A DNA stretch of 36,503 nucleotides, taken from Lachnospiraceae bacterium (lineage in GTDB: Bacteria; Bacillota; Clostridia; Lachnospirales; Lachnospiraceae). Numbering within the stretch: the first letter of the stretch is position 1; each line of letters starts with the position of its first letter. Below are positions 24,985 to 36,503 of this stretch, in pieces. The translations under genes and the position numbers were made by a program. Under the pieces are notes generated by a model. It was not told where the DNA came from. It made no database searches and saw nothing but the letters and a program-made list of their open reading frames with translations. The DNA lies in NCBI GenBank assembly GCA_016290595.1, contig JAEEUR010000014.1:1-36503 (forward strand), written 5' to 3'.

Positions 24985-25010
24985 AACATATGAACAATTA
25001 AGCATATGTT
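24985..25010 (+). promoter_or_regulatory. Probable ArsR/SmtB-family operator
   Basis: AACATATG-aacaattaag-CATATGTT inverted repeat at the predicted transcription start; ATATGAACAA half-site resembles known ArsR/SmtB operators. Confidence 0.65.
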
Positions 25011-25026
25011 TTGCAAAGGAGCCGCC

Positions 25027-27282
25027 ATGGACAAGGAAGAAGTCAGAAAAACGGAAAACGAAGTCCCGGAAGAGATAGAAGAGGAAGCCTGCCATCACCA
25101 TCATCACCACGATGATGACGATGACGGGGAATGCTGCTGCCATCATCATCACCATGATGACGACGATGATGACGATGAAGAGTGCGGCTGCCATCATCAT
25201 CACCACGATGATGACGATGACGACGAGGAGTGCACCTGCCATCATCCGCACCATCACCATCACGACGATGACGACGACGAGGACGAGGACGAGCCGCATT
25301 TCGAGCTGGGCTGCAGCTGCGGCCACTGCCATCATGAGCATCACGAACACGGCCATGAGCACGGGCATGAGCATCATCACGGGCACGGGCACCGGCACGG
25401 GGCGGATGCAGACGGGGAGGATGACGAAGCGCACGAGAAGAAGGAAAAGCGGGAGCTGATCCTCGGCGCGGGCCTGTTTGCGGCCGCCGTGATCCTGCAT
25501 CTTGTTCTGCGGGAGGAAGGCTACAGCTGGCCGCTCATCGTACTTTTGGTCGCTGCCTACCTGATCCTTGGCAAGGACGTGCTGCTGACCTCGGTGAGAA
25601 ACATCGCGCACGGGGAGATCTTCGACGAGAACTTTCTGATGAGCATCGCGACGCTGGGCGCCTTCGCCATCCGGGAGTATCCGGAGGCGGTCGGCGTGAT
25701 GCTGTTCTTCCGCCTGGGCGAGATGTTCGAGGACATGGCGGTGGAGAGCAGCCGCAAGAAGATCCTGGAGACCGTGAATCTGCGCGCGGAGACCGTCACG
25801 CTCTCGAACGGAAGCGTGATCCCCGCCAAAAAGGCGAAGGCAGGCGACCTCGTCCTGGTCAGCCCGGGCGACCGGGTGCCGCTGGACGGCGTGATCACCG
25901 GGGGCGAAAGCTTTCTTGACACCTCCGCGATCACCGGCGAGCCGGTGCCCGTACGGGTCGGTCCCGGAAGCGAGATCCTGGCCGGCTGCGTGAATACGCA
26001 GGGCGTGCTGACCGTGCGCGCCACGAAGAAGCTTTCCGAGTCCATGACCAGCCGTATCCTGCGCTCCGTGGAGGAGGCACAGGAGCAGAAGCCCCAGATC
26101 GAGCACTTTATCACGCGCTTTGCGCGGGTCTATACGCCCATCGTGGTGGGACTGGCCCTGTTCGTCGCTGTCGCCATGCCGCTGATCCGCGGCGAGGCTT
26201 TTAAGCCCTGGCTTTATACCGCCATCAGCTTCCTGGTCATGAGCTGCCCCTGCGCGCTGGTGGTCAGCGTGCCGCTGGCTTTCTTCTGCGGCATCGGCAC
26301 CGCGTCCGGCCGCGGGATCCTTTTAAAGGGCGGCGCCGCCATCGAAGCGCTGTCCCGGATCAAAGCCGTCGTGCTGGACAAGACCGGGACCATTACCGAA
26401 GGCAGCTTTGCCGTGCAGAAAACGGAGACGCTGGGCACGCTCTCCGAGGAGGAGGCCCTGCGCCTGGCGGCCGCCTGCGAGCGCTTAAGCCGCCATCCGA
26501 TCGGGCAGAGCATCGTAAACGCCGCCGTTTCCCGGGGGCTTGAGATCCCCGAAGCGGAGGACATGTCGGAGATCGCCGGCCGGGGCGTCATCGCGTCCGT
26601 GGAAGGAAGACGCATCCTCTGCGGCAATCCGAAGCTGTTTAAGGCGGAGGGCGTTTCCGTCGAAGGGATCCCCGCGGCGGCGGGAACGCAGGTGCTGCTG
26701 GCCGTGGACGGCATTCTTCAGGCGAGCTTTACGATCGCGGACGCGGTCAAGAAGGACGCGCAGCCTTCGCTTTCGGCCTTAAAGAAGATGGGCCTGACGC
26801 CCGTCATGCTGACCGGAGACGGAGAAGCGTCGGCGCGTGAGATCGCCGGGCAGGTCGGCATCGGGCGCATCCGGGCGGGCCTGCTGCCGGAGGAGAAGCT
26901 CTCCGCCATGCAGGAGATCCGCCGGGAGATCGGCGGCGTGCTCTTCGTGGGCGACGGTCTAAACGACGCGCCCGTTCTGGCCGGCGCCGACGTGGGCGCC
27001 GCAATGGGAAGCGGTGCGGATGCGGCGATCGAGGCAGCCGATCTGGTCTTCATGAACTCCAACGTGGCCGCAATCCCCGAGGCGATCACGCTGGCGAACC
27101 GGGCCATGCGCATCGCCCGGGAGAACGTCATCGGCGCGCTGGCGATCAAGATCCTTGTGATGATCCTGGGCGTGGCCGGCATCTACTCCAACATGTGGCT
27201 GGCGGTGTTTGCGGACACGGGCGTTTTGTTCCTCTGCATCTTAAACGCCCTGCGCCTTCTGCGCTGGAAGACTGTTAAATAG
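25027..27282 (+). CDS. P1B-type heavy-metal (Zn/Cd/Pb-like) translocating ATPase with His/Asp/Cys-rich N-terminus
   Basis: 'SCPCALVVSVPL' CPC motif, 'DKTGTITEG', 'GDGLNDAPVLAGADVGAAMG'; RBS aaaggagccgcc. Confidence 0.93.
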   Translation: MDKEEVRKTENEVPEEIEEEACHHHHHHDDDDDGECCCHHHHHDDDDDDDEECGCHHHHHDDDDDDEECTCHHPHHHHHDDDDDEDEDEPHFELGCSCGHCHHEHHEHGHEHGHEHHHGHGHRHGADADGEDDEAHEKKEKRELILGAGLFAAAVILHLVLREEGYSWPLIVLLVAAYLILGKDVLLTSVRNIAHGEIFDENFLMSIATLGAFAIREYPEAVGVMLFFRLGEMFEDMAVESSRKKILETVNLRAETVTLSNGSVIPAKKAKAGDLVLVSPGDRVPLDGVITGGESFLDTSAITGEPVPVRVGPGSEILAGCVNTQGVLTVRATKKLSESMTSRILRSVEEAQEQKPQIEHFITRFARVYTPIVVGLALFVAVAMPLIRGEAFKPWLYTAISFLVMSCPCALVVSVPLAFFCGIGTASGRGILLKGGAAIEALSRIKAVVLDKTGTITEGSFAVQKTETLGTLSEEEALRLAAACERLSRHPIGQSIVNAAVSRGLEIPEAEDMSEIAGRGVIASVEGRRILCGNPKLFKAEGVSVEGIPAAAGTQVLLAVDGILQASFTIADAVKKDAQPSLSALKKMGLTPVMLTGDGEASAREIAGQVGIGRIRAGLLPEEKLSAMQEIRREIGGVLFVGDGLNDAPVLAGADVGAAMGSGADAAIEAADLVFMNSNVAAIPEAITLANRAMRIARENVIGALAIKILVMILGVAGIYSNMWLAVFADTGVLFLCILNALRLLRWKTVK
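25090..25400 (+). repeat. In-frame CAY/GAY low-complexity repeats encoding poly-His/poly-Asp blocks
   Basis: 'CHHHHHHDDDDDGECCCHHHHHDDDDDDDEECGCHHHHHDDDDDDEECTCHHPHHHHHDDDDDEDEDE...HEHHEHGHEHGHEHHHGHGHRHG'. Confidence 0.9.
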
Positions 27283-27322: not shown

Positions 27323-27368
27323 AAACCTGCCGGCGGTCAGGAAAAGATTGACCGCGGCAGGTTTTTTT
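27323..27368 (+). terminator. Rho-independent terminator of the metal ATPase
   Basis: AAACCTGCCGgCGGTCA-ggaaaagat-TGACCGCGGCAGGTTTTTTT. Confidence 0.88.
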
Positions 27369-27376
27369 GGTATATT
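27348..27376 (+). promoter_or_regulatory. Promoter for the YidC-sulfatase locus, overlapping the terminator
   Basis: TTGACC-17 nt-TATATT. Confidence 0.6.
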
Positions 27377-27461
27377 TTGAGCGGAGGGTTACAAACACGT
27401 TCCGTTCTTTTGCTGGAAGGAAGAAAGGAACGTGTCTTTGTGGCGTATTTCGGGAGGACCC

Positions 27462-30212
27462 ATGAGTATTTTCGGAATGCTGTATCAGCTTTTGATCGGG
27501 CCGCTGGAGCTTTTTTTTGAAGCGATCTACGGCTTTTCCAAGCTGCTCTTCGGAAACGCCGGCCTCTCCATCTTCCTTTTGAGCATGAGCATGAACGTCC
27601 TGCTGCTGCCGCTCTACAAACGGGCGGACGCGATCCAGGAGGAGGAACGCCAGATCAACAAACGCCTCTCGCCCTGGGTCAGCCACATCAAGAAGACCTT
27701 TTCGGGCGACGAGCGCTACATGATGCTGCAGACCTACTACCGGCAGAACGATTACCGGCCCTTCTACGCCCTGCGCGGCTCGCTGCCGCTCCTTCTGGAG
27801 ATCCCCTTCTTCATCGCGGCGTATCATTTCCTGTCCAATCTGCCGGAATTAAAGGGCACGGCCTTCGGTCCCATCCGGGATCTGGGCGCACCGGACGGCC
27901 TGCTGACGATCGGTACGCTGACGGTGCACGTCCTGCCCATTCTGATGACCCTGATCAACTTCGTCTCCAGTGCCATCTATACGAAAGGGCTGTCGGCAAG
28001 GGACAAGATCCAGCTCTACGGCATGGCGCTGATCTTCCTGGTCCTGCTTTATCAATCGCCGGCGGGACTGGTCTTTTACTGGACGCTGAACAACCTGTTC
28101 TCCCTCGTTAAAAACCTGATCGGCCGGCTGAAGGATCCGGGCCGGACCGTGCGGATCGGCCTGGCCGTGCTGGGAGCGGCGCTTTTCTTCTGGTCGCTGC
28201 TTTTCTACCGGCCCGCCAGAACGGCGTATAAGCTGCTGCTGGTCTTTCTGGCCTTCCTGATGCTGCTTCCGCTGCTTTTATCGCAGCTTAAGAAAAAAGG
28301 ACGCCTGCCGGCGATCTCCCTTCCGGAGGACAGTTCGCCCCGCCGCTTCTTCGGCGGCGCCCTGCTGCTGACGGTCTTAACGGGCGTTCTGATCCCTTCG
28401 GCCGTCATCGCCGCCTCGCCGGCGGAATTCATCCAGATGGCGGACTTCTACTCGCCGCTGCGCCACGTGTTCAACGCCCTGCTGCTGGCGGCCGGCCTCT
28501 TTCTGGTCTGGTTCGGTATCTTTTACTACCTGGCCGGCCGGAAGGCGAAGACGGTCATAGAAGCGCTTTTGTGGGTGCTCGGCGTCCTTGCGATCATCAA
28601 CTATATGTTTTTCGGAACGAAGCTGGGAACGCTCTCCGCGGAACTTAAATACGATACGCCGCCTGCCTTCGGCGCGGGAACGAAGCTCATCAATCTCGGC
28701 ATCCTGGCGGCGGCGGCCGTCCTTGTGATCTGGCTGTGGAAGAAAAACAAAAAGCTCTGCTCCGGCTGCTGCCTGGTGCTCTGCCTGGCGATGGCGGGCA
28801 TGTCCGCCGTCAATCTTGTCCGCATCCGGGGGACGGTCTCCGATATGCGCGGGATCGCGGAGCAGGCCCCGGAGGAACAAGCGGAGCTTACTTTGAGCCG
28901 CGACGGGAAAAACGTGATCATTATCATGCTGGACCGCGCCATCAGCAGTTATCTGCCGTATCTGTTTGCGGAAAACCCCGCGCTTAAGCAGCAGTATGCC
29001 GGCTTTACCTATTATCCGAATACGGTCTCTCACGGCGCCTATACGATCTTCGGCGCGCCCGGGCTCTGGGGCGGCTACGAATATACGCCGGAGGAGATGA
29101 ACAAGCGGAGCAGCGAGACCTTAAAGGACAAGCACAACGAGGCCTTAAAGGTCCTGCCGGTGCTGTTTGATCAGGCCGGCTACGACGTCACGGTCTGCGA
29201 CCCGACCTACGCGGGCTATGCCTGGATCCCGGATCTTTCCATCTACAGCGGGTATCCGGACATAAAGTGCTATATCACGGAACAGGGCCAGTTCTCCCTG
29301 GAAACGGGAGAAGAGAAGGCCGAGGCCTTAAACGGGATCTGGAAGCGGAACTTCTTCTGCTACAGCCTGATGAAGTGCTCGCCGCTCGTGCTCCAGAGCA
29401 ATCTGTACCAGGGCGGCAGCTATTTCGCCTCCGCTTCCTTCAGGCGCTGGAGCCAGACGGAAGAGGGGATCTCGCAGGCGCAGGGCTATAAGAACAGCTT
29501 TATGGATTCCTACGCCGTGCTGGCGGCCCTGCCCTCCGTCACGAAGCTGAGCGAAGGAACGGCCGGCTCGCTACTCATCATGAGCAATTCCACGACGCAC
29601 GAGCCGATGCTGCTTCAGGAGCCGGCCTATCAGCCGGCCGAAAAGGTGGACAACCGGGAATACGATGAGGCCCACCGGGACCGCTTTACCTTAAACGGCC
29701 GCACGCTCCGCGTGGAGGATTTCAATCAGATGGCCCACTATCAGACCAATATGGCGGCGTTGATGGCGCTGGGAAACTGGTTTGACTATCTTAAGGCAAA
29801 CGGCGTTTACGACAACAGCCGCATCATCATCGTATCGGACCACGGCCGCGATCTGGCCCAGTTCGACGACCTTCTCTTCGGCACGGAATACTACGAAGAC
29901 GTGATGTTCTACAATCCGCTGCTGCTGATCAAGGATTTCGGGGCAAAGACATTTACGACGGATAATGCGTTCATGACCAACGCCGACGTGCCGGCAGAAG
30001 CGCTGGCGGGGCTTATCGAAGAGGCGCGCAATCCCTTCACCGGGCAGCTCATCGACTCGGGCCGGAAGGCGGAAGGGCCGCAGCGCATCCTGTTTTCGGA
30101 CAATATCGAGACGGACAAGAACACCGGCTGCACCTTCGCACCGGGCGTCTGGTTCGAGGTGGATGAAAACATCTTCGATCTGTCCAAATGGAAAAAACTC
30201 GGGTCTTACTAA
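27462..30212 (+). CDS. YidC/Oxa1-like domain fused to sulfatase/LtaS-fold domain, copy 1
   Basis: N-terminal YidC-like 'LLIGPLELFFEAIYGF...MNVLLLPLYKRADAIQ...LPLLLEIPFFIAAYHFLSNL...QSPAGLVFYWTLNNLFSLVKN'; C-terminal 'NVIIIMLDRA', 'SHGAYTIFGAP', 'STTHEPMLL', 'IIIVSDHGRDL'; RBS gggagga before ATG 27462. Confidence 0.85.
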   Translation: MSIFGMLYQLLIGPLELFFEAIYGFSKLLFGNAGLSIFLLSMSMNVLLLPLYKRADAIQEEERQINKRLSPWVSHIKKTFSGDERYMMLQTYYRQNDYRPFYALRGSLPLLLEIPFFIAAYHFLSNLPELKGTAFGPIRDLGAPDGLLTIGTLTVHVLPILMTLINFVSSAIYTKGLSARDKIQLYGMALIFLVLLYQSPAGLVFYWTLNNLFSLVKNLIGRLKDPGRTVRIGLAVLGAALFFWSLLFYRPARTAYKLLLVFLAFLMLLPLLLSQLKKKGRLPAISLPEDSSPRRFFGGALLLTVLTGVLIPSAVIAASPAEFIQMADFYSPLRHVFNALLLAAGLFLVWFGIFYYLAGRKAKTVIEALLWVLGVLAIINYMFFGTKLGTLSAELKYDTPPAFGAGTKLINLGILAAAAVLVIWLWKKNKKLCSGCCLVLCLAMAGMSAVNLVRIRGTVSDMRGIAEQAPEEQAELTLSRDGKNVIIIMLDRAISSYLPYLFAENPALKQQYAGFTYYPNTVSHGAYTIFGAPGLWGGYEYTPEEMNKRSSETLKDKHNEALKVLPVLFDQAGYDVTVCDPTYAGYAWIPDLSIYSGYPDIKCYITEQGQFSLETGEEKAEALNGIWKRNFFCYSLMKCSPLVLQSNLYQGGSYFASASFRRWSQTEEGISQAQGYKNSFMDSYAVLAALPSVTKLSEGTAGSLLIMSNSTTHEPMLLQEPAYQPAEKVDNREYDEAHRDRFTLNGRTLRVEDFNQMAHYQTNMAALMALGNWFDYLKANGVYDNSRIIIVSDHGRDLAQFDDLLFGTEYYEDVMFYNPLLLIKDFGAKTFTTDNAFMTNADVPAEALAGLIEEARNPFTGQLIDSGRKAEGPQRILFSDNIETDKNTGCTFAPGVWFEVDENIFDLSKWKKLGSY

Positions 30213-30221
30213 GGAGGCGAA

Positions 30222-32939
30222 ATGTCCTTTTTCCATATGCTGTATCAACTGATCATCGGGCCGCTGGAGCTGATCCTCGAAACGGTCTACGGGGCGGCGC
30301 AGCTCTTGTTCGCCAGCCCCGGCGTTTCGATCATCGCGATGAGCCTGGTCATGAACCTCCTGCTTTTGCCGCTCTATAAGAGCGCGGACGCGATCCAGGC
30401 CGGGCAGCGCGAGAAGGAGAAGAGCCTGGCGGCGTGGGTCTCCCATATCCGGAAGACCTTTAAGGGCGACGAGCGCTACATGATGCTCCAGACCTACTAC
30501 CGCCAGAACGACTACAAGCCCTTCCACGTCTTAAAGGGCATGCTGCCGCTGCTTTTAGAGATCCCCTTCTTTATCGCGGCCTATCACTTTTTGTCCAACC
30601 TGCAGGAGATCCGGGGAACGGCCTTCGGCCCGATCGAGGACCTGGGCTCGCCCGACAACCTCCTTGCGATCGGCACGCTCACGCTCCACCTGCTGCCGGT
30701 CCTCATGACGCTGATCAACTTTATATCCAGCGCGGTCTACACCAGAGGCTTTCCGCTTAAGGACAAGCTGACGCTCTACGGGATGGCCGTGCTGTTCCTC
30801 GTCCTTTTGTACGAGTCTCCGGCCGGCCTGGTCCTGTACTGGACCTTGAACAACCTGTTCTCGCTGGTCAAAAACGTCGTGCAGAAGATCGCGGAGCTGA
30901 TCCGGAAGAAGATAAAAGCCCGGAAGGACAGGAGAGAAACCGTCGTGGCCAGAACGGCCGCGATGCTGGGCGGCGCGCCGGCCGCCGCGCCGGAAGCCGG
31001 AAAAGCACAGGCGTCTGCCGCCCTTCCGAAAGGCCTTTTCTCCCTGGGCTGCCTGTTCTTAACGCTGCTCACCGGCGTGCTGATCCCTTCGACCCTGGTG
31101 CTGGCCTCGCCCTCGGAGTTCGTCCTGATCTCGAATTTCCGCTCGCCGCTCATCCACGTGTTTACCGCGTTCCTGCTGGCGGCCGGCCTCTTTCTCCTCT
31201 GGTTCGGCATCTTTTACTATCTGGCGGGGCCGAAGGGAAAGAAGATCTTTGCCTGCCTTATCTGGCTGCTCTCGGGCGGCGCCGTCGTCAACTACATGTT
31301 TTTCGGGACGGAGCTGGGCAACATGTCCGCGGAGCTCAAATTCGACGTCACGCCGGAATTTTTGCCGAAGGAGCGGCTCCTTAACTTCGGGATCCTGCTG
31401 GGGCTGGCGGCGCTCATGCTGCTCATCTGGATCAAGGGCAAAAAGCTGGTCCGGGGCCTCTATATCGTCCTGATCCTGGCCATCTCGGGCATGGCGGGGA
31501 TGAACCTGATCGATACGCAGAAGCAGCTGCCGCAGATCCGCTCGGTCGTTTACAACGTGCCGGACGAGCTGGCGCACTTTACCATAAGCAAGAACGGCAA
31601 AAACGTGATCGTGATCTTCATGGACCGCGCGGTCGGCGCGCTGGTGCCCTACCTTTTCCAGGAAAAGCCCGAGCTGGCGCAGCAGTTTGAGGGCTTTACC
31701 TTCTATCCGAACACGCTGTCCTTCGGGCCGGTGACCAACATCGCCTCGCCCGCGCTCTTCGGCGGCTACGACTACACGCCCGAGCGCATGAACGCGCGCG
31801 ACACCGTGAAGATCTCGAAAAAGCACGACGAAGCTTTAAAGCTCATGCCGGTGACCTTCTACAACGAGGGCTACGACGTGACGCTCTGCGACCCGACCTA
31901 CGCGAACTACAGCTGGTATCCGGACCTGTCCGCCTTCGACGACTATCCCGGCATGCACACCTACATCACCGCGGAGGGGCAGTTCGCGGACTTCGGCAAG
32001 GAAGGCCAGGGCGTCAGGATGACGGGGATCTGGGAGCGGAATTTCTTCTGCTACAGCCTGATGAAGACCGCGCCGGTGGCCGTTCAGCCCTTCCTGTACC
32101 AGGGAGGAACCTATTTTAAAGCCGAAGCCGTGGAGGAGCTGACGCAGCGCTGGTACGGCATGTCCGTCGCGAAGGGCCTGCATCAGCCCTTCCTGAACGC
32201 CTACTCGGTGCTCTGCTCGCTGCCGGCCATGAGCCGCATCAGCGACGGCGACGAGAACACCTTCATGATGATGGTCAACTATACCGCGCACGAGCCGAAC
32301 CTTCTGCAGGAGCCGCAGTACGAGCCCGCGCAGGAGGTCAACAACCTGCTCTACGACGCGAACCAGAGCCGTTTCACTTACAACGGGCGGACCTTAAGGG
32401 TCGAGAAGATCACGCAGATGGCGCACTACCAGGTCAACATGGCGGCGCTCATGCGCCTGGGCATCTGGATGGATTTCCTGAAGGAGAGCGGCGTCTACGA
32501 CAACTGCCGCATCATCATCGTTTCCGACCACGGCCGGGATCTCGGCCTTCTGGACGAGATGAAGTTCGGGAGCGAAAACTACGAGGACGTGATGACCTAC
32601 AATCCGCTCCTGATGGTCAAGGATTTTAACGCCCCGAAAGAGCCCTGCGTGACGGACGATACGTTCATGACCAACGCGGACACGCCGCTGCTGGCGTTTG
32701 AAGGCCTGATCGAGGATCCCGTCAATCCGCTGACCGGCCTTCCGGTGACGGATGAGCTGAAATACGAGACGGAGCAGCACGTTTTCTTCTCCGATATTTA
32801 TTCCACCGTCAAGAACAACGGCACGGTCTTCCTGCCCGGCACCTGGCTGGTCATGGAAGGCGAAGACATCTTTGACATGAGCCGCTGGCGCACGGTCGGC
32901 GAGACTCCGGACTTTTCCTCAGGCGCGAAAGGACAGTAA
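30222..32939 (+). CDS. YidC/Oxa1-like domain fused to sulfatase/LtaS-fold domain, copy 2
   Basis: Same architecture as copy 1: 'MNLLLLPLYKSADAIQ', 'ESPAGLVLYWTLNNLFSLVKN', 'NVIVIFMDRA', 'SFGPVTNIASP', 'YTAHEPNLL', 'IIIVSDHGRDL'; RBS aaggaggcga. Confidence 0.85.
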   Translation: MSFFHMLYQLIIGPLELILETVYGAAQLLFASPGVSIIAMSLVMNLLLLPLYKSADAIQAGQREKEKSLAAWVSHIRKTFKGDERYMMLQTYYRQNDYKPFHVLKGMLPLLLEIPFFIAAYHFLSNLQEIRGTAFGPIEDLGSPDNLLAIGTLTLHLLPVLMTLINFISSAVYTRGFPLKDKLTLYGMAVLFLVLLYESPAGLVLYWTLNNLFSLVKNVVQKIAELIRKKIKARKDRRETVVARTAAMLGGAPAAAPEAGKAQASAALPKGLFSLGCLFLTLLTGVLIPSTLVLASPSEFVLISNFRSPLIHVFTAFLLAAGLFLLWFGIFYYLAGPKGKKIFACLIWLLSGGAVVNYMFFGTELGNMSAELKFDVTPEFLPKERLLNFGILLGLAALMLLIWIKGKKLVRGLYIVLILAISGMAGMNLIDTQKQLPQIRSVVYNVPDELAHFTISKNGKNVIVIFMDRAVGALVPYLFQEKPELAQQFEGFTFYPNTLSFGPVTNIASPALFGGYDYTPERMNARDTVKISKKHDEALKLMPVTFYNEGYDVTLCDPTYANYSWYPDLSAFDDYPGMHTYITAEGQFADFGKEGQGVRMTGIWERNFFCYSLMKTAPVAVQPFLYQGGTYFKAEAVEELTQRWYGMSVAKGLHQPFLNAYSVLCSLPAMSRISDGDENTFMMMVNYTAHEPNLLQEPQYEPAQEVNNLLYDANQSRFTYNGRTLRVEKITQMAHYQVNMAALMRLGIWMDFLKESGVYDNCRIIIVSDHGRDLGLLDEMKFGSENYEDVMTYNPLLMVKDFNAPKEPCVTDDTFMTNADTPLLAFEGLIEDPVNPLTGLPVTDELKYETEQHVFFSDIYSTVKNNGTVFLPGTWLVMEGEDIFDMSRWRTVGETPDFSSGAKGQ

Positions 32940-32940
32940 G

Positions 32941-34230
32941 ATGATGAAGATCTTTCCGTTATATATCGATCCCGGCACCGGGAGCATGCTGTTTACCGTT
33001 CTGATCGGCGTGCTGGGCACCGCCTTCTACCTGCTGCGCGGCTTTTTCGTCAAGCTCCGCTTCTGGCTGACCGGCGGCGCCGGCGAGAAGAAGGGGCAGG
33101 AGGACCGCATGCCCTTCGTCATCTTTTCCGACAGCAAGCGCTACTGGAACCTCTTCGGGCCGGTCTGCGATGAATTTGAAAAGCGCGGGGAGAAGCTGGT
33201 CTATCTGACGGCCTCCGAAGACGATCCCGCGTTAAAGCAGTCGTACGAAAACGTGCGCTGCGAGTTTATCGGCGAGGGCAACAAGGCCTTCGCGAAGCTG
33301 GGCTTTTTAAAAGCAGACGTGCTGCTTTCCACGACCCCGGGCCTGGAGGTCTATCAGTGGAAGCGCTCCAAGGACGTGAAATGGTACGTCCACGCGCTCC
33401 ACGCGGCCAGCGACGTCAGCGCCTACCGCATGTTCGGCATCGATTACTACGACGCCCTGCTGCTTTCCGGCCGGTACCAGATCGAACAGGTGCGGCAGCT
33501 GGAAAAGCTGCGCGGCCTGCCGGAGAAGGAACTGGTGCTGACGGGCGTTCCCTTCCTGGACGCCATGAAGAAGCGCCTGGAGGAGGCCGATCCGCTTCCG
33601 CCGCATCCCGTGACGGTGCTGCTGGCGCCGACCTGGGGCAAGAGCGGGATCTTAAGCCGCTACGGCGCGAAGGCGATCTGCGCGCTCCTTGCGACGGGCT
33701 ATCACGTCATCGTGCGGCCGCACCCGCAGTCCTTCACTTCGGAAAAGGAGATGCTGGATACGCTGATGGCCGAGTTCCCCGAAAGCGAACAGCTGGAATG
33801 GAACCGCGACAACGACAACTTCGAGGTCCTGCGGCGTTCCGACGTGATGATCTCGGACTATTCCGGCGTCATTTTCGACTACTGCCTGATCTTTGACCGG
33901 CCTGTGATCTATGCGGACACCTCCTTCGACAAGGCGCCCTACGACGCCGCCTGGCTGGACGAGGAGCTCTGGACCTTCCGGACCCTGCCGAAGATCGGCC
34001 GGCCGCTGGAGGAAAAGGACTTCGACAGGATCGGGGAGGTCATCGGCGGGATGATCGGCAACCCGAAGTATCAGGCCGCGATCGAAGAAGCCCGGCAGGA
34101 GACCTGGTGCCATATCGGCGAAGGAGCGGCGCGCATCGCGGACTATATGATCGGGAAGCAGAAAGATCTTAAGGAAGCGGCGGAAAAGGCCGCCGCCGAC
34201 AAGAAAAAGACGGCGGCAAAGAAAAAATAG
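32941..34230 (+). CDS. CDP-glycerol glycerophosphotransferase-like protein with N-terminal membrane segment
   Basis: 'VIVRPHPQSF', 'SDVMISDYSGVIFDYCLIFDRPVIY' Glyphos_transf motifs; N-terminal 'IDPGTGSMLFTVLIGVLGTAFYLLRGFF'. Confidence 0.82.
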   Translation: MMKIFPLYIDPGTGSMLFTVLIGVLGTAFYLLRGFFVKLRFWLTGGAGEKKGQEDRMPFVIFSDSKRYWNLFGPVCDEFEKRGEKLVYLTASEDDPALKQSYENVRCEFIGEGNKAFAKLGFLKADVLLSTTPGLEVYQWKRSKDVKWYVHALHAASDVSAYRMFGIDYYDALLLSGRYQIEQVRQLEKLRGLPEKELVLTGVPFLDAMKKRLEEADPLPPHPVTVLLAPTWGKSGILSRYGAKAICALLATGYHVIVRPHPQSFTSEKEMLDTLMAEFPESEQLEWNRDNDNFEVLRRSDVMISDYSGVIFDYCLIFDRPVIYADTSFDKAPYDAAWLDEELWTFRTLPKIGRPLEEKDFDRIGEVIGGMIGNPKYQAAIEEARQETWCHIGEGAARIADYMIGKQKDLKEAAEKAAADKKKTAAKKK

Positions 34231-34272
34231 AAGAGAACCGGCAGGCACCCTGCCTCAAAGGAGATAAACAGT

Positions 34273-34848
34273 ATGGCAAAGAACATTATTCTGGCTTCCA
34301 ATTCCCCGCGCCGGAAGCAGCTCTTGAAAATGGCGGGGATCCGCTTTACGGTCCTGCCCAGCGACGTGCCGGAAATGGTGCCGGAATTCGTCACGGATGA
34401 GAAGCGCGCGCAGTTCCTGGCGGAGCTGAAGGCCTCCTACACGAGCGTCTTCCATCCGAAGGACATCATCATCGGAGCGGACACGACCGTCATCTGCGAA
34501 GGACGGCTCATGGGGAAGCCCGCCACGCGCGAAGAAGCGAAGGAGATGCTGCGCTTTTTATCCGGCAAGGTCCATACGGTCTATACCGGGGTCTGCCTGA
34601 TCTGGAGCGACGAAGAGGACGCGGAGTGCTTCAGCTCCGAGACGAAGGTGGAGTTCTATCCGCTGACCGAGAAGCAGATAGAAGAGTACGTCGCCAGCGG
34701 CGAACCGATGGATAAGGCCGGCGCTTACGGGATCCAGGGCCTGGGCTCAACGCTGGTCAAGCGCATCGAAGGAGATTATTACACCGTGGTCGGGCTTCCG
34801 ATCGCGGAAGTCGTACGGAGACTAAAGAAACACGAGGGAGAGTTATGA
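34273..34848 (+). CDS. maf: Maf family nucleotide pyrophosphatase
   Basis: 'ILASNSPRRKQLLKMAGI', 'IIGADTTVICEGRLMGKP', 'DKAGAYGIQGLG'. Confidence 0.95.
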   Translation: MAKNIILASNSPRRKQLLKMAGIRFTVLPSDVPEMVPEFVTDEKRAQFLAELKASYTSVFHPKDIIIGADTTVICEGRLMGKPATREEAKEMLRFLSGKVHTVYTGVCLIWSDEEDAECFSSETKVEFYPLTEKQIEEYVASGEPMDKAGAYGIQGLGSTLVKRIEGDYYTVVGLPIAEVVRRLKKHEGEL

Positions 34849-36089
34849 ACAAGAAACAGGTACGGCAGATCTTAAAAGACACGGATTTCATCCACACGAG
34901 CGGCAGCCCCGAAGAGCTGAAGGTCGCGGAATACTTAAAAGCCCGCTGTGAGGAGCGGGGCGTAAAAGCCTGGCTGGAGAGCTTCCCGGTCGAGATGGCC
35001 GAGGTCCGGCATGCGAAACTGACGGTCAAAGACGCGGCCGGCCGTGAGCAGGAGATCCCCTGCGAGGGATACCGGCTCTGCGGCAGCGGAAGCATCGAAG
35101 CCCCGTTTATCTACCTTCCCAACACGGATCCCGCCTCCTTAAGCCAGATCCGCGGGAAGATCGTGCTGCTGGACGGCGGCGTGGGCATCTTCACCTATCA
35201 GGACCTTCTTAAGGGCGGGGCCGCCGGCATCATCACCTATGACGGCAACGTGCACTACGCGGACCGGGACATCGACAAGAAGGAACTGCGGCCGTACGTG
35301 GCGCAGGGAAAAAAGACCCTGGCCGTCAACGTCAACGCCAAGGACGCGGTCGCCGTCGTCAAAGCCGGCGCCGTCAGCGCGAAGATCGAGGTGGAGCAGG
35401 AGGAATCGGCCGGCGAGTCCCACAACGTGATCGCCGAGCTGCCCGGGGAAAGCGACGAATGGATCGTCTTAAGCGCGCATCTGGATACGACGCCCTTATC
35501 CCGCGGCTCCTACGACAACATGACCGGCTGCCTGGGCTTACTGTGCGTGCTGGACGCCCTTAAAGGGAAGAAGCACCGCTACGGCCTGCGCTTCGTCTTC
35601 TGCGGCAGCGAGGAGCGGGGGCTCTTAGGCTCCAAGGCTTACGCGGCGGCGCACGAAGCGGAGCTCGAAAAGATCGCGCTCAACATCAATCTGGACATGA
35701 TCGGCACCTATATGGGCAAATTTATCACCTGCGTCAGCGCGGAGGACGCCCTGCTCGGCTTCATCCGCTACTTTGCGTCGATCCGCGGCTGGGGGCTGGA
35801 CGGCAGAGTCGGCGTCTACTCCAGCGATTCCACGCCTTTTGCGGATAAGGGCGTTCCGGCCCTGTCCTTCGCCCGGATCGCGGGCCCCGCGCAGGCGACC
35901 ATCCACAACCGCTACGACACCCCCGCCGTTCTTTCGGACGAGCAGATCTTAAAGGACAGCGCGTTCATCGCCGCCTTCACCGAGACCATGGCGGACGCGG
36001 TCAAGTGCCCGGTGAAGCGGGAGATCCCCGAAAAAGTCAAGGGGGATCTGGACAACTACCTGGGCCGCAAGCGCAAAGAGCAGCCTTAA
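34845..36089 (+). CDS. M28 family aminopeptidase with PA-like insert
   Basis: 'VLSAHLDTTP', 'GSYDNMTGCLGLL', 'FVFCGSEERGLLGSKAY', 'NLDMIGTY'; ATGA overlap with maf. Confidence 0.9.
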   Translation: MNKKQVRQILKDTDFIHTSGSPEELKVAEYLKARCEERGVKAWLESFPVEMAEVRHAKLTVKDAAGREQEIPCEGYRLCGSGSIEAPFIYLPNTDPASLSQIRGKIVLLDGGVGIFTYQDLLKGGAAGIITYDGNVHYADRDIDKKELRPYVAQGKKTLAVNVNAKDAVAVVKAGAVSAKIEVEQEESAGESHNVIAELPGESDEWIVLSAHLDTTPLSRGSYDNMTGCLGLLCVLDALKGKKHRYGLRFVFCGSEERGLLGSKAYAAAHEAELEKIALNINLDMIGTYMGKFITCVSAEDALLGFIRYFASIRGWGLDGRVGVYSSDSTPFADKGVPALSFARIAGPAQATIHNRYDTPAVLSDEQILKDSAFIAAFTETMADAVKCPVKREIPEKVKGDLDNYLGRKRKEQP

Positions 36090-36095
36090 TGCGTT

Positions 36096-36503
36096 ATGAA
36101 CAAGACGGAGATCCTGATCGCCATCCTCGGATGCGGCTTCCTGATCTATCTGATCCGGGAGGCCTTTCAGGTGCGCGCCGACCGCAGGAAACTGACGCAC
36201 GTCATCTACGTGAACGGGACCCGCGGGAAATCCACGGTCACCCGCATGATCGCCGCCGGCATCACGGCAGGCGGCCATAAGGTCATGTGCAAGACCACCG
36301 GGACCCTGCCCATCGCGATCTATCCGGACGGACGTCAGGAAGAAGTGAAGCGGCGCGGTCCGGCCAATATCCGCGAGCAGATCAAGTTCCTGCATATTGC
36401 GGCGAAGGAAGGAGCGGACTATCTGGTCATCGAATGCATGGCGCTTCTGCCGGAATACCAGCGCGTCTCCGGCAAAAACATGCTGCACTGCGACATCGGC
36501 GTC
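36096..36503 (+). CDS. pgsB: Poly-gamma-glutamate synthase PgsB/CapB-like (3' truncated by window)
   Basis: Manual translation 'MNKTEILIAILGCGFLIYLIREAFQVRADRRKLTHVIYVNGTRGKSTVTRMIAAGITAGGHKVMCKTTGTLP...'; ATP-binding NGTRGKST; frame open to window end. Confidence 0.88.
   Translation, partial: MNKTEILIAILGCGFLIYLIREAFQVRADRRKLTHVIYVNGTRGKSTVTRMIAAGITAGGHKVMCKTTGTLPIAIYPDGRQEEVKRRGPANIREQIKFLHIAAKEGADYLVIECMALLPEYQRVSGKNMLHCDIGV

Follow-up and report, generated by a model that had tools for sequence, protein, structure and literature searches.

The question raised by this locus is whether six co-directional genes at the end of a Lachnospiraceae contig, running from two YidC-sulfatase-like proteins to pgsB, form one composite system for glycerol phosphate and poly-gamma-glutamate (gamma-PGA), as the initial annotation proposed, and what the proteins at its start do. 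The window, the 36,503-nucleotide stretch of DNA analysed here, is a whole contig (C87) of a 2.31-Mb genome in 150 contigs. As this genome is a metagenome-assembled genome (MAG, 96.6% complete), gene absences in it are to be read as soft. The six genes, their order and the gaps of 9, 1, 42, -4 and 6 nt between them were confirmed by the open reading frames, and the domain names by Pfam/NCBIfam models (60KD_IMP in YS1 and YS2, Sulfatase in YS1, Glyphos_transf, Maf, Peptidase_M28 and PgsB). YS denotes the two fusion proteins and their relatives, and GPT the TagF-fold protein encoded next to them:

27348 to 27376, + strand: extended -10 promoter-like site before YS1 (consensus match only)
27432 to 30212, + strand: YS1 open reading frame; the conserved ATG lies at 27462, and a GTG start at 27432 is also possible
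27462 to 30212, + strand: YS1, a YidC domain, five transmembrane (TM) helices and a transferase of the alkaline phosphatase superfamily (open reading frame, Pfam/NCBIfam)
30222 to 32939, + strand: YS2, a paralogue of YS1 of 905 aa (open reading frame, Pfam, AlphaFold)
30321 to 30881, + strand: YidC domain of YS2 (Pfam 60KD_IMP; fold match to E. coli YidC)
30354 to 30356, + strand: codon of YS2 Asn45, aligned with the groove Arg of YidC (E. coli R366; profile alignment)
31578 to 32936, + strand: predicted extracytoplasmic transferase domain of YS2 (invariant D468, T505, H690, D769-H770)
32941 to 34230, + strand: GPT, a membrane-anchored GT-B protein with a TagF/TarL fold, conserved partner of YS (Pfam, model)
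34273 to 34848, + strand: Maf nucleotide pyrophosphatase (genus backbone, specific to neither YS/GPT nor pgs)
34845 to 36089, + strand: M28 peptidase (genus backbone, found also in genomes without pgs)
36096 to 36503 (contig edge), + strand: 5' part of pgsB, the remainder lying on contig C69

The promoter-like site before YS1 is the sole one on the + strand of the region, where two extended -10 promoter-like matches were found and 2.5 were expected. The terminator-like sites of the region lie within genes or on the opposite strand. Of the proposed single operon from YS1 to pgsB, the short gaps and the lack of a clear internal terminator therefore stand, and a single transcript is plausible.

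A scan of named genomes returned at least 584 stretches encoding YS relatives, of which the best 79 loci, mostly from MAGs of rumen and gut Clostridia, were kept; YS was found by the gene caller in 76 of them. Among these 76 loci (from the best 79 of at least 584), GPT was present in 64 and directly adjacent on the same strand in 63, in both orders (GPT-YS and YS-GPT), and pgs genes were present in two, both of this genus. The conserved unit is YS plus GPT. YS is often tandemly duplicated, and one cluster (L168) holds seven YS genes with one GPT. Cultured isolates of Butyrivibrio or Lachnospiraceae such as XBD2001 and INlla21 have the pair as well. The pair was also seen in records labelled Eggerthellaceae and Bacteroidaceae (L156, L182), which reflects either horizontal transfer or misbinned contigs.

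Genes that recur near the pair encode an EamA transporter (LicB-like), a LicA-type choline kinase and a cytidylyltransferase resembling LicC, which in many cases carries a winged-helix domain; others encode a PEP mutase-cytidylyltransferase, a TPP enzyme resembling phosphonopyruvate decarboxylase and a class V aminotransferase. Genes for LicA/B/C or for PepM/Ppd/aminoethylphosphonate (AEP) transaminase occur in 37 of the best 79 loci (of at least 584), upstream, downstream or convergent to YS-GPT, and one locus of the same genus (L040) reads YS-GPT-LicA-LicB. In a generic Pfam tally, no further family recurred in more than 5 of the 106 other neighbours, and LicD appeared at most once. Counting against a role in head-group transfer, lic/pnt genes are absent nearby in more than half of the loci (best 79 of at least 584). 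Because the neighbour enrichment ignores shared ancestry, we relied on counts on the YS tree, where no fewer than eight changes on supported branches are required to explain the lic context, and likewise the pnt context. Both contexts cluster on this tree more than shuffles do (2 of 500 and 0 of 500, respectively), as would be expected if YS itself were tuned to the head group; shared gene order among near relatives also contributes to this clustering.

YS2 aligns with YS1 over the full length at 55% identity and with the same active-site residues, which it keeps although it was missed by the Pfam Sulfatase model. An AlphaFold model of YS2 (mean pLDDT 91.7) was matched by Foldseek to E. coli YidC in its N-terminal part (rmsd 3.5-3.9 over 210 columns) and, for the rest, to proteins of the alkaline phosphatase superfamily including MCR-1, PbgA, LtaP and LtaS. 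Hydrophobicity and positive-inside loop charge fit ten TM helices, five plus five, with the catalytic domain outside. The residues D468, T505, H690, D769 and H770 are present in all 92 YS proteins, and Thr505 is presumably the nucleophile, given its position and what is known of the family. As judged from sequence and model, the five TM helices, outside domain, Thr at the nucleophile place and metal ligands would make the second half of YS an LtaS/EptA-type enzyme. A Thr at this place, rather than Cys or Ser, favours a phospho-group transferase over a sulfatase. A true sulfatase was ruled out, as Thr505 occupies in 92 of 92 proteins the position where Cys or Ser (for formylglycine) is needed.

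The GPT model shows a GT-B fold with a TM anchor and has TagF with CDP-glycerol as its nearest match, and the GPT profile matches Cps3D and TarL; weak matches to the TarF and TarL families were obtained for six and two of 32 GPTs, respectively. GPT has the TagF fold and the PF04464 match expected of a CDP-glycerol glycerophosphotransferase, with the Pfam match spanning the donor half only. The donor-site motifs RPHP and SD(F/Y)S are present, and an invariant P-(S/T)-W-G is found where the TagF-like Cps3D has P-T-W-R. The motif YIDPGTG, which starts the TM anchor (window 32962-32982), is invariant in 32 of 32 GPTs.

With regards to donor supply, the glycerol-phosphate substrate assumed in the initial annotation became doubtful, as no glycerol-3-phosphate cytidylyltransferase (TIGR01518) and thus no TagD/TarD-type supply of CDP-glycerol was found in the 96.6% complete genome of the window. 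In the same genome, GPT is the sole Glyphos_transf gene, and LicD was not found. Synthesis of AEP by this genome itself was ruled out, as no PEP mutase was found in the genome search. It does encode a 589-aa LicC-choline kinase fusion (L204:2032-3801, contig C20), which is extended at its N-terminus by a region similar to a winged helix and is preceded by a gene for a cytosine/purine-type permease. Activation genes are linked to the transferase in the 37 loci of relatives mentioned above, and the LicC-kinase of the window's own genome lies on another contig. Fourteen of the 15 LicC-positive genomes of the genus have LicD (one as a contig-edge fragment) or YS, the exception (G006) being 83% complete, and the sole LicC-negative genome has neither, all of which are small numbers drawn from MAGs. 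Four YS genomes of the genus carry LicC and no LicD; that some YS genomes also carry LicD counts against the head-group reading. A CDP-alcohol phosphotransferase could instead be the consumer of CDP-choline in the window's genome, which encodes a third such enzyme, a PF01066 protein of about 359 aa. At L209:4385-6961, an ABC permease domain is fused to a LicC-type nucleotidyltransferase in a separate protein of 859 aa, and G006 and G009 have similar frames of 860 aa.

Since YS and GPT travel together in many gut Clostridia, often beside phosphocholine or AEP genes, they are a candidate system for displaying charged head groups at the cell surface. The reading we prefer, to which we give a little less than an even chance, is that the pair decorates a surface glycan or polymer with nucleotide-activated head groups (phosphocholine; AEP in relatives). 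LicC/PntC-type enzymes, whose genes were seen, would make CDP-choline or CMP-AEP. GPT, to judge by its fold, would then act at the cytoplasmic face, taking the head group off the nucleotide and placing it on a membrane lipid or a lipid-linked acceptor. The YidC domain, which has lost its groove charge, may pass this lipid to the outer leaflet, in line with the in vitro scrambling of lipids by E. coli YidC (PMC10491306). Finally, the fused Thr-type transferase, with its LtaS/EptA-type architecture and intact active site, would place the head group on its ultimate acceptor at the surface. A more specific version, on balance unlikely, is that YS is a single-chain lipid scramblase and head-group transferase, its YidC domain having become a dedicated lipid translocator that feeds the fused transferase. 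Together with GPT, YS would then stand in for LicD or supplement it, and carry out the last AEP or phosphocholine tailoring steps at the surface of gut Clostridia.

Judged by fold alone, YS and GPT would suit glycerol phosphate just as well (LtaS/LtaP, TagF). YS may instead be an LtaS-type glycerol-phosphate polymerase that uses phosphatidylglycerol and brings its own YidC-derived scramblase, with GPT priming from CDP-glycerol and the Lic/Pnt enzymes only decorating the resulting teichoic acid, a reading that we regard as a genuine, if doubtful, possibility. The structural matches to LtaP/LtaS and to TagF with CDP-glycerol and the weak TarF/TarL family matches argue for such a polymerase, as does the known decoration of polymers with phosphocholine and AEP. 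However, neither TIGR01518 nor a second Glyphos_transf gene was found in the window's largely complete genome, GPT differs from Cps3D in the final residue of the P-(S/T)-W-G motif, and the YS clades track the lic versus the pnt context, which is not predicted if other enzymes perform the decoration.

The YidC half of YS has the fold and the Pfam/TIGR03592 domain of a YidC insertase. A profile alignment places Asn45 where E. coli YidC has its groove residue R366. Of the 92 YS proteins, 89 have Asn here, two Ser and one Thr, so that the charge called strictly conserved among YidC homologues (PMC8920935) is missing. A housekeeping YidC is encoded elsewhere in the genome (C13), with a groove Lys as read from its sequence. 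In the predicted topology of YS, the YidC part ends inside, the second bundle likewise begins inside, and the YidC C-tail runs directly into the TM bundle of the transferase. It is conceivable that the YidC domain works as a genuine insertase, serving YS itself or a partner membrane protein, with the transferase as incidental cargo. E. coli YidC with R366N and Y517W still complements (PMC8920935), and YS has an invariant Trp at the position read as E. coli 517; since R366N is tolerated together with Trp, insertase activity of YS is possible, and the YidC fold is retained. Nevertheless, the separate housekeeping YidC with its groove Lys, the uncharged groove of YS and the continuity of the C-tail with the transferase bundle make this explanation improbable. 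We know of no case in which lipid scrambling is the dedicated physiological task of a YidC-type insertase, and the question of dedicated scrambling would become testable with a widespread protein that joins a charge-less YidC domain to a lipid-using transferase.

At the other end of the locus, contig C69 overlaps the end of the window by 256 bases with 3 mismatches (window 36248-36503 and L003:11015-11270), which probably represent strain variation that broke the assembly. C69 continues with the rest of pgsB, pgsC, two successive TIGR04332 genes, an ECF-type membrane protein and LarC. The same order is unbroken on single contigs in two relatives, and the join of C87 and C69 is therefore sound. 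PgsB scored above its model cut-off and PgsC, at 87.7 bits, just below the cut-off of 96.45, and both parts of a Pgs gamma-PGA synthase are present. With pgsC and the two TIGR04332 genes following pgsB, the downstream operon is a genuine gamma-PGA one, and the description of the locus as co-directional envelope-polymer genes was borne out. Of the genes expected beyond the contig edge, pgsC was found, and the genes around pgs on C69, with the TIGR04332 genes after pgsC, showed neither pgsA (CapA) nor pgsE. By eye, two serpin-like genes in tandem adjoin a siderophore-type ABC system at L003:2-1747.

Within the genus, true pgsB is present in 12 of 16 genomes and YS in seven (G000, G002, G003, G009, G010, G012 and G013), and the two are linked only in the three sister species G000, G010 and G012. 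Both are present and unlinked in G009, YS occurs without pgsB in G002, G003 and G013, and pgsB occurs without YS in eight genomes. The interval from a P-type ATPase to maf is a variable site. Three species have YS/GPT there; G004, G008 and G011 have different sequence that lacks the pair (of these, only the G004 sequence was read); in G007, the P-ATPase, maf and M28 genes are consecutive, with neither YS/GPT nor pgs. Because this site varies and G007 has neither module, Maf and M28 are best seen as backbone flanked by YS-GPT and pgs. On the YS tree, all pgs-linked rows fall within one same-genus group, so a single origin of the linkage is possible. YS plus GPT (module 1) and pgsBC with the two TIGR04332 genes (module 2) are almost certainly separate modules lying side by side, and only a few sister species have YS/GPT beside a gamma-PGA operon. 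The initial annotation had named loss of synteny between YS and pgsB in relatives as evidence against its composite system, and outside the three sister species this link is indeed broken. That both modules act on one composite polymer, with glycerol phosphate on gamma-PGA, is suggested by the short gaps, the lack of a clear internal terminator and the linkage retained in three sister species, but is highly improbable given their independence across the genus and in 74 of 76 YS loci (best 79 of at least 584).

Two further features were observed at or next to this site. The G004 site (L097:5972-8270) holds at least two opposite-strand genes that by eye resemble AmmeMemoRadiSam proteins. The P-type metal ATPase of the window (25006-27282) has about 130 N-terminal aa of repeated His, Asp/Glu and Cys blocks, a region that is shorter in the relative L097.

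For comparison with known systems, the YS transferase resembles LtaS/LtaP, EptA/MCR-1 and PbgA in its five TM helices plus extracytoplasmic domain, its Thr at the nucleophile place, its Asp/His/Asp-His ligands and its fold, but is fused behind a complete YidC domain and shares only about 11-17% identity with them. A literature search for YidC-sulfatase/LtaS or YidC-LTA synthase fusions and for CDP-choline/LicD in Lachnospiraceae found no description of the fusion in the open-access literature, and this architecture appears to be undescribed. YS shares the YidC domain with YidC/Oxa1 insertases (rmsd 3.5-3.9 to E. coli YidC), whereas its groove Arg/Lys is replaced by Asn (Ser/Thr) in 92 of 92 proteins, the C-tail is not free and an enzyme is fused. 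GPT has the fold and the motifs RPHP and SD(F/Y)S in common with the polyol-phosphate polymerases TagF/TarL/Cps3D; unlike these, it is single-domain, with an N-terminal TM helix bearing YIDPGTG and with P-(S/T)-W-G, in a genome where no CDP-glycerol synthase was found. The downstream module agrees with the PgsB/PgsC/TIGR04332 poly-gamma-glutamate system in pgsB, pgsC and two TIGR04332 genes, differs in that no CapA-type pgsA was seen adjacent, and is independent of YS. From Lic1 (LicABCD) and Pnt (PepM/Ppd/PntC), the activation genes adjoin YS-GPT in the 37 loci described above, and YS/GPT would replace, or stand beside, LicD. The pilin phosphorylcholine transferase PptA also belongs to the alkaline phosphatase superfamily and transfers phosphocholine (PMC10434233), but has no YidC fusion. 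No species with both Lic-1 and PptA was found in that survey, and a transferase of the superfamily linked to lic genes would accordingly be new. In phosphonate tailoring, the transfer step was left open and called enigmatic (PMC6697681); YS and GPT are candidate enzymes for this step and for phosphocholine display in rumen and gut Clostridia.
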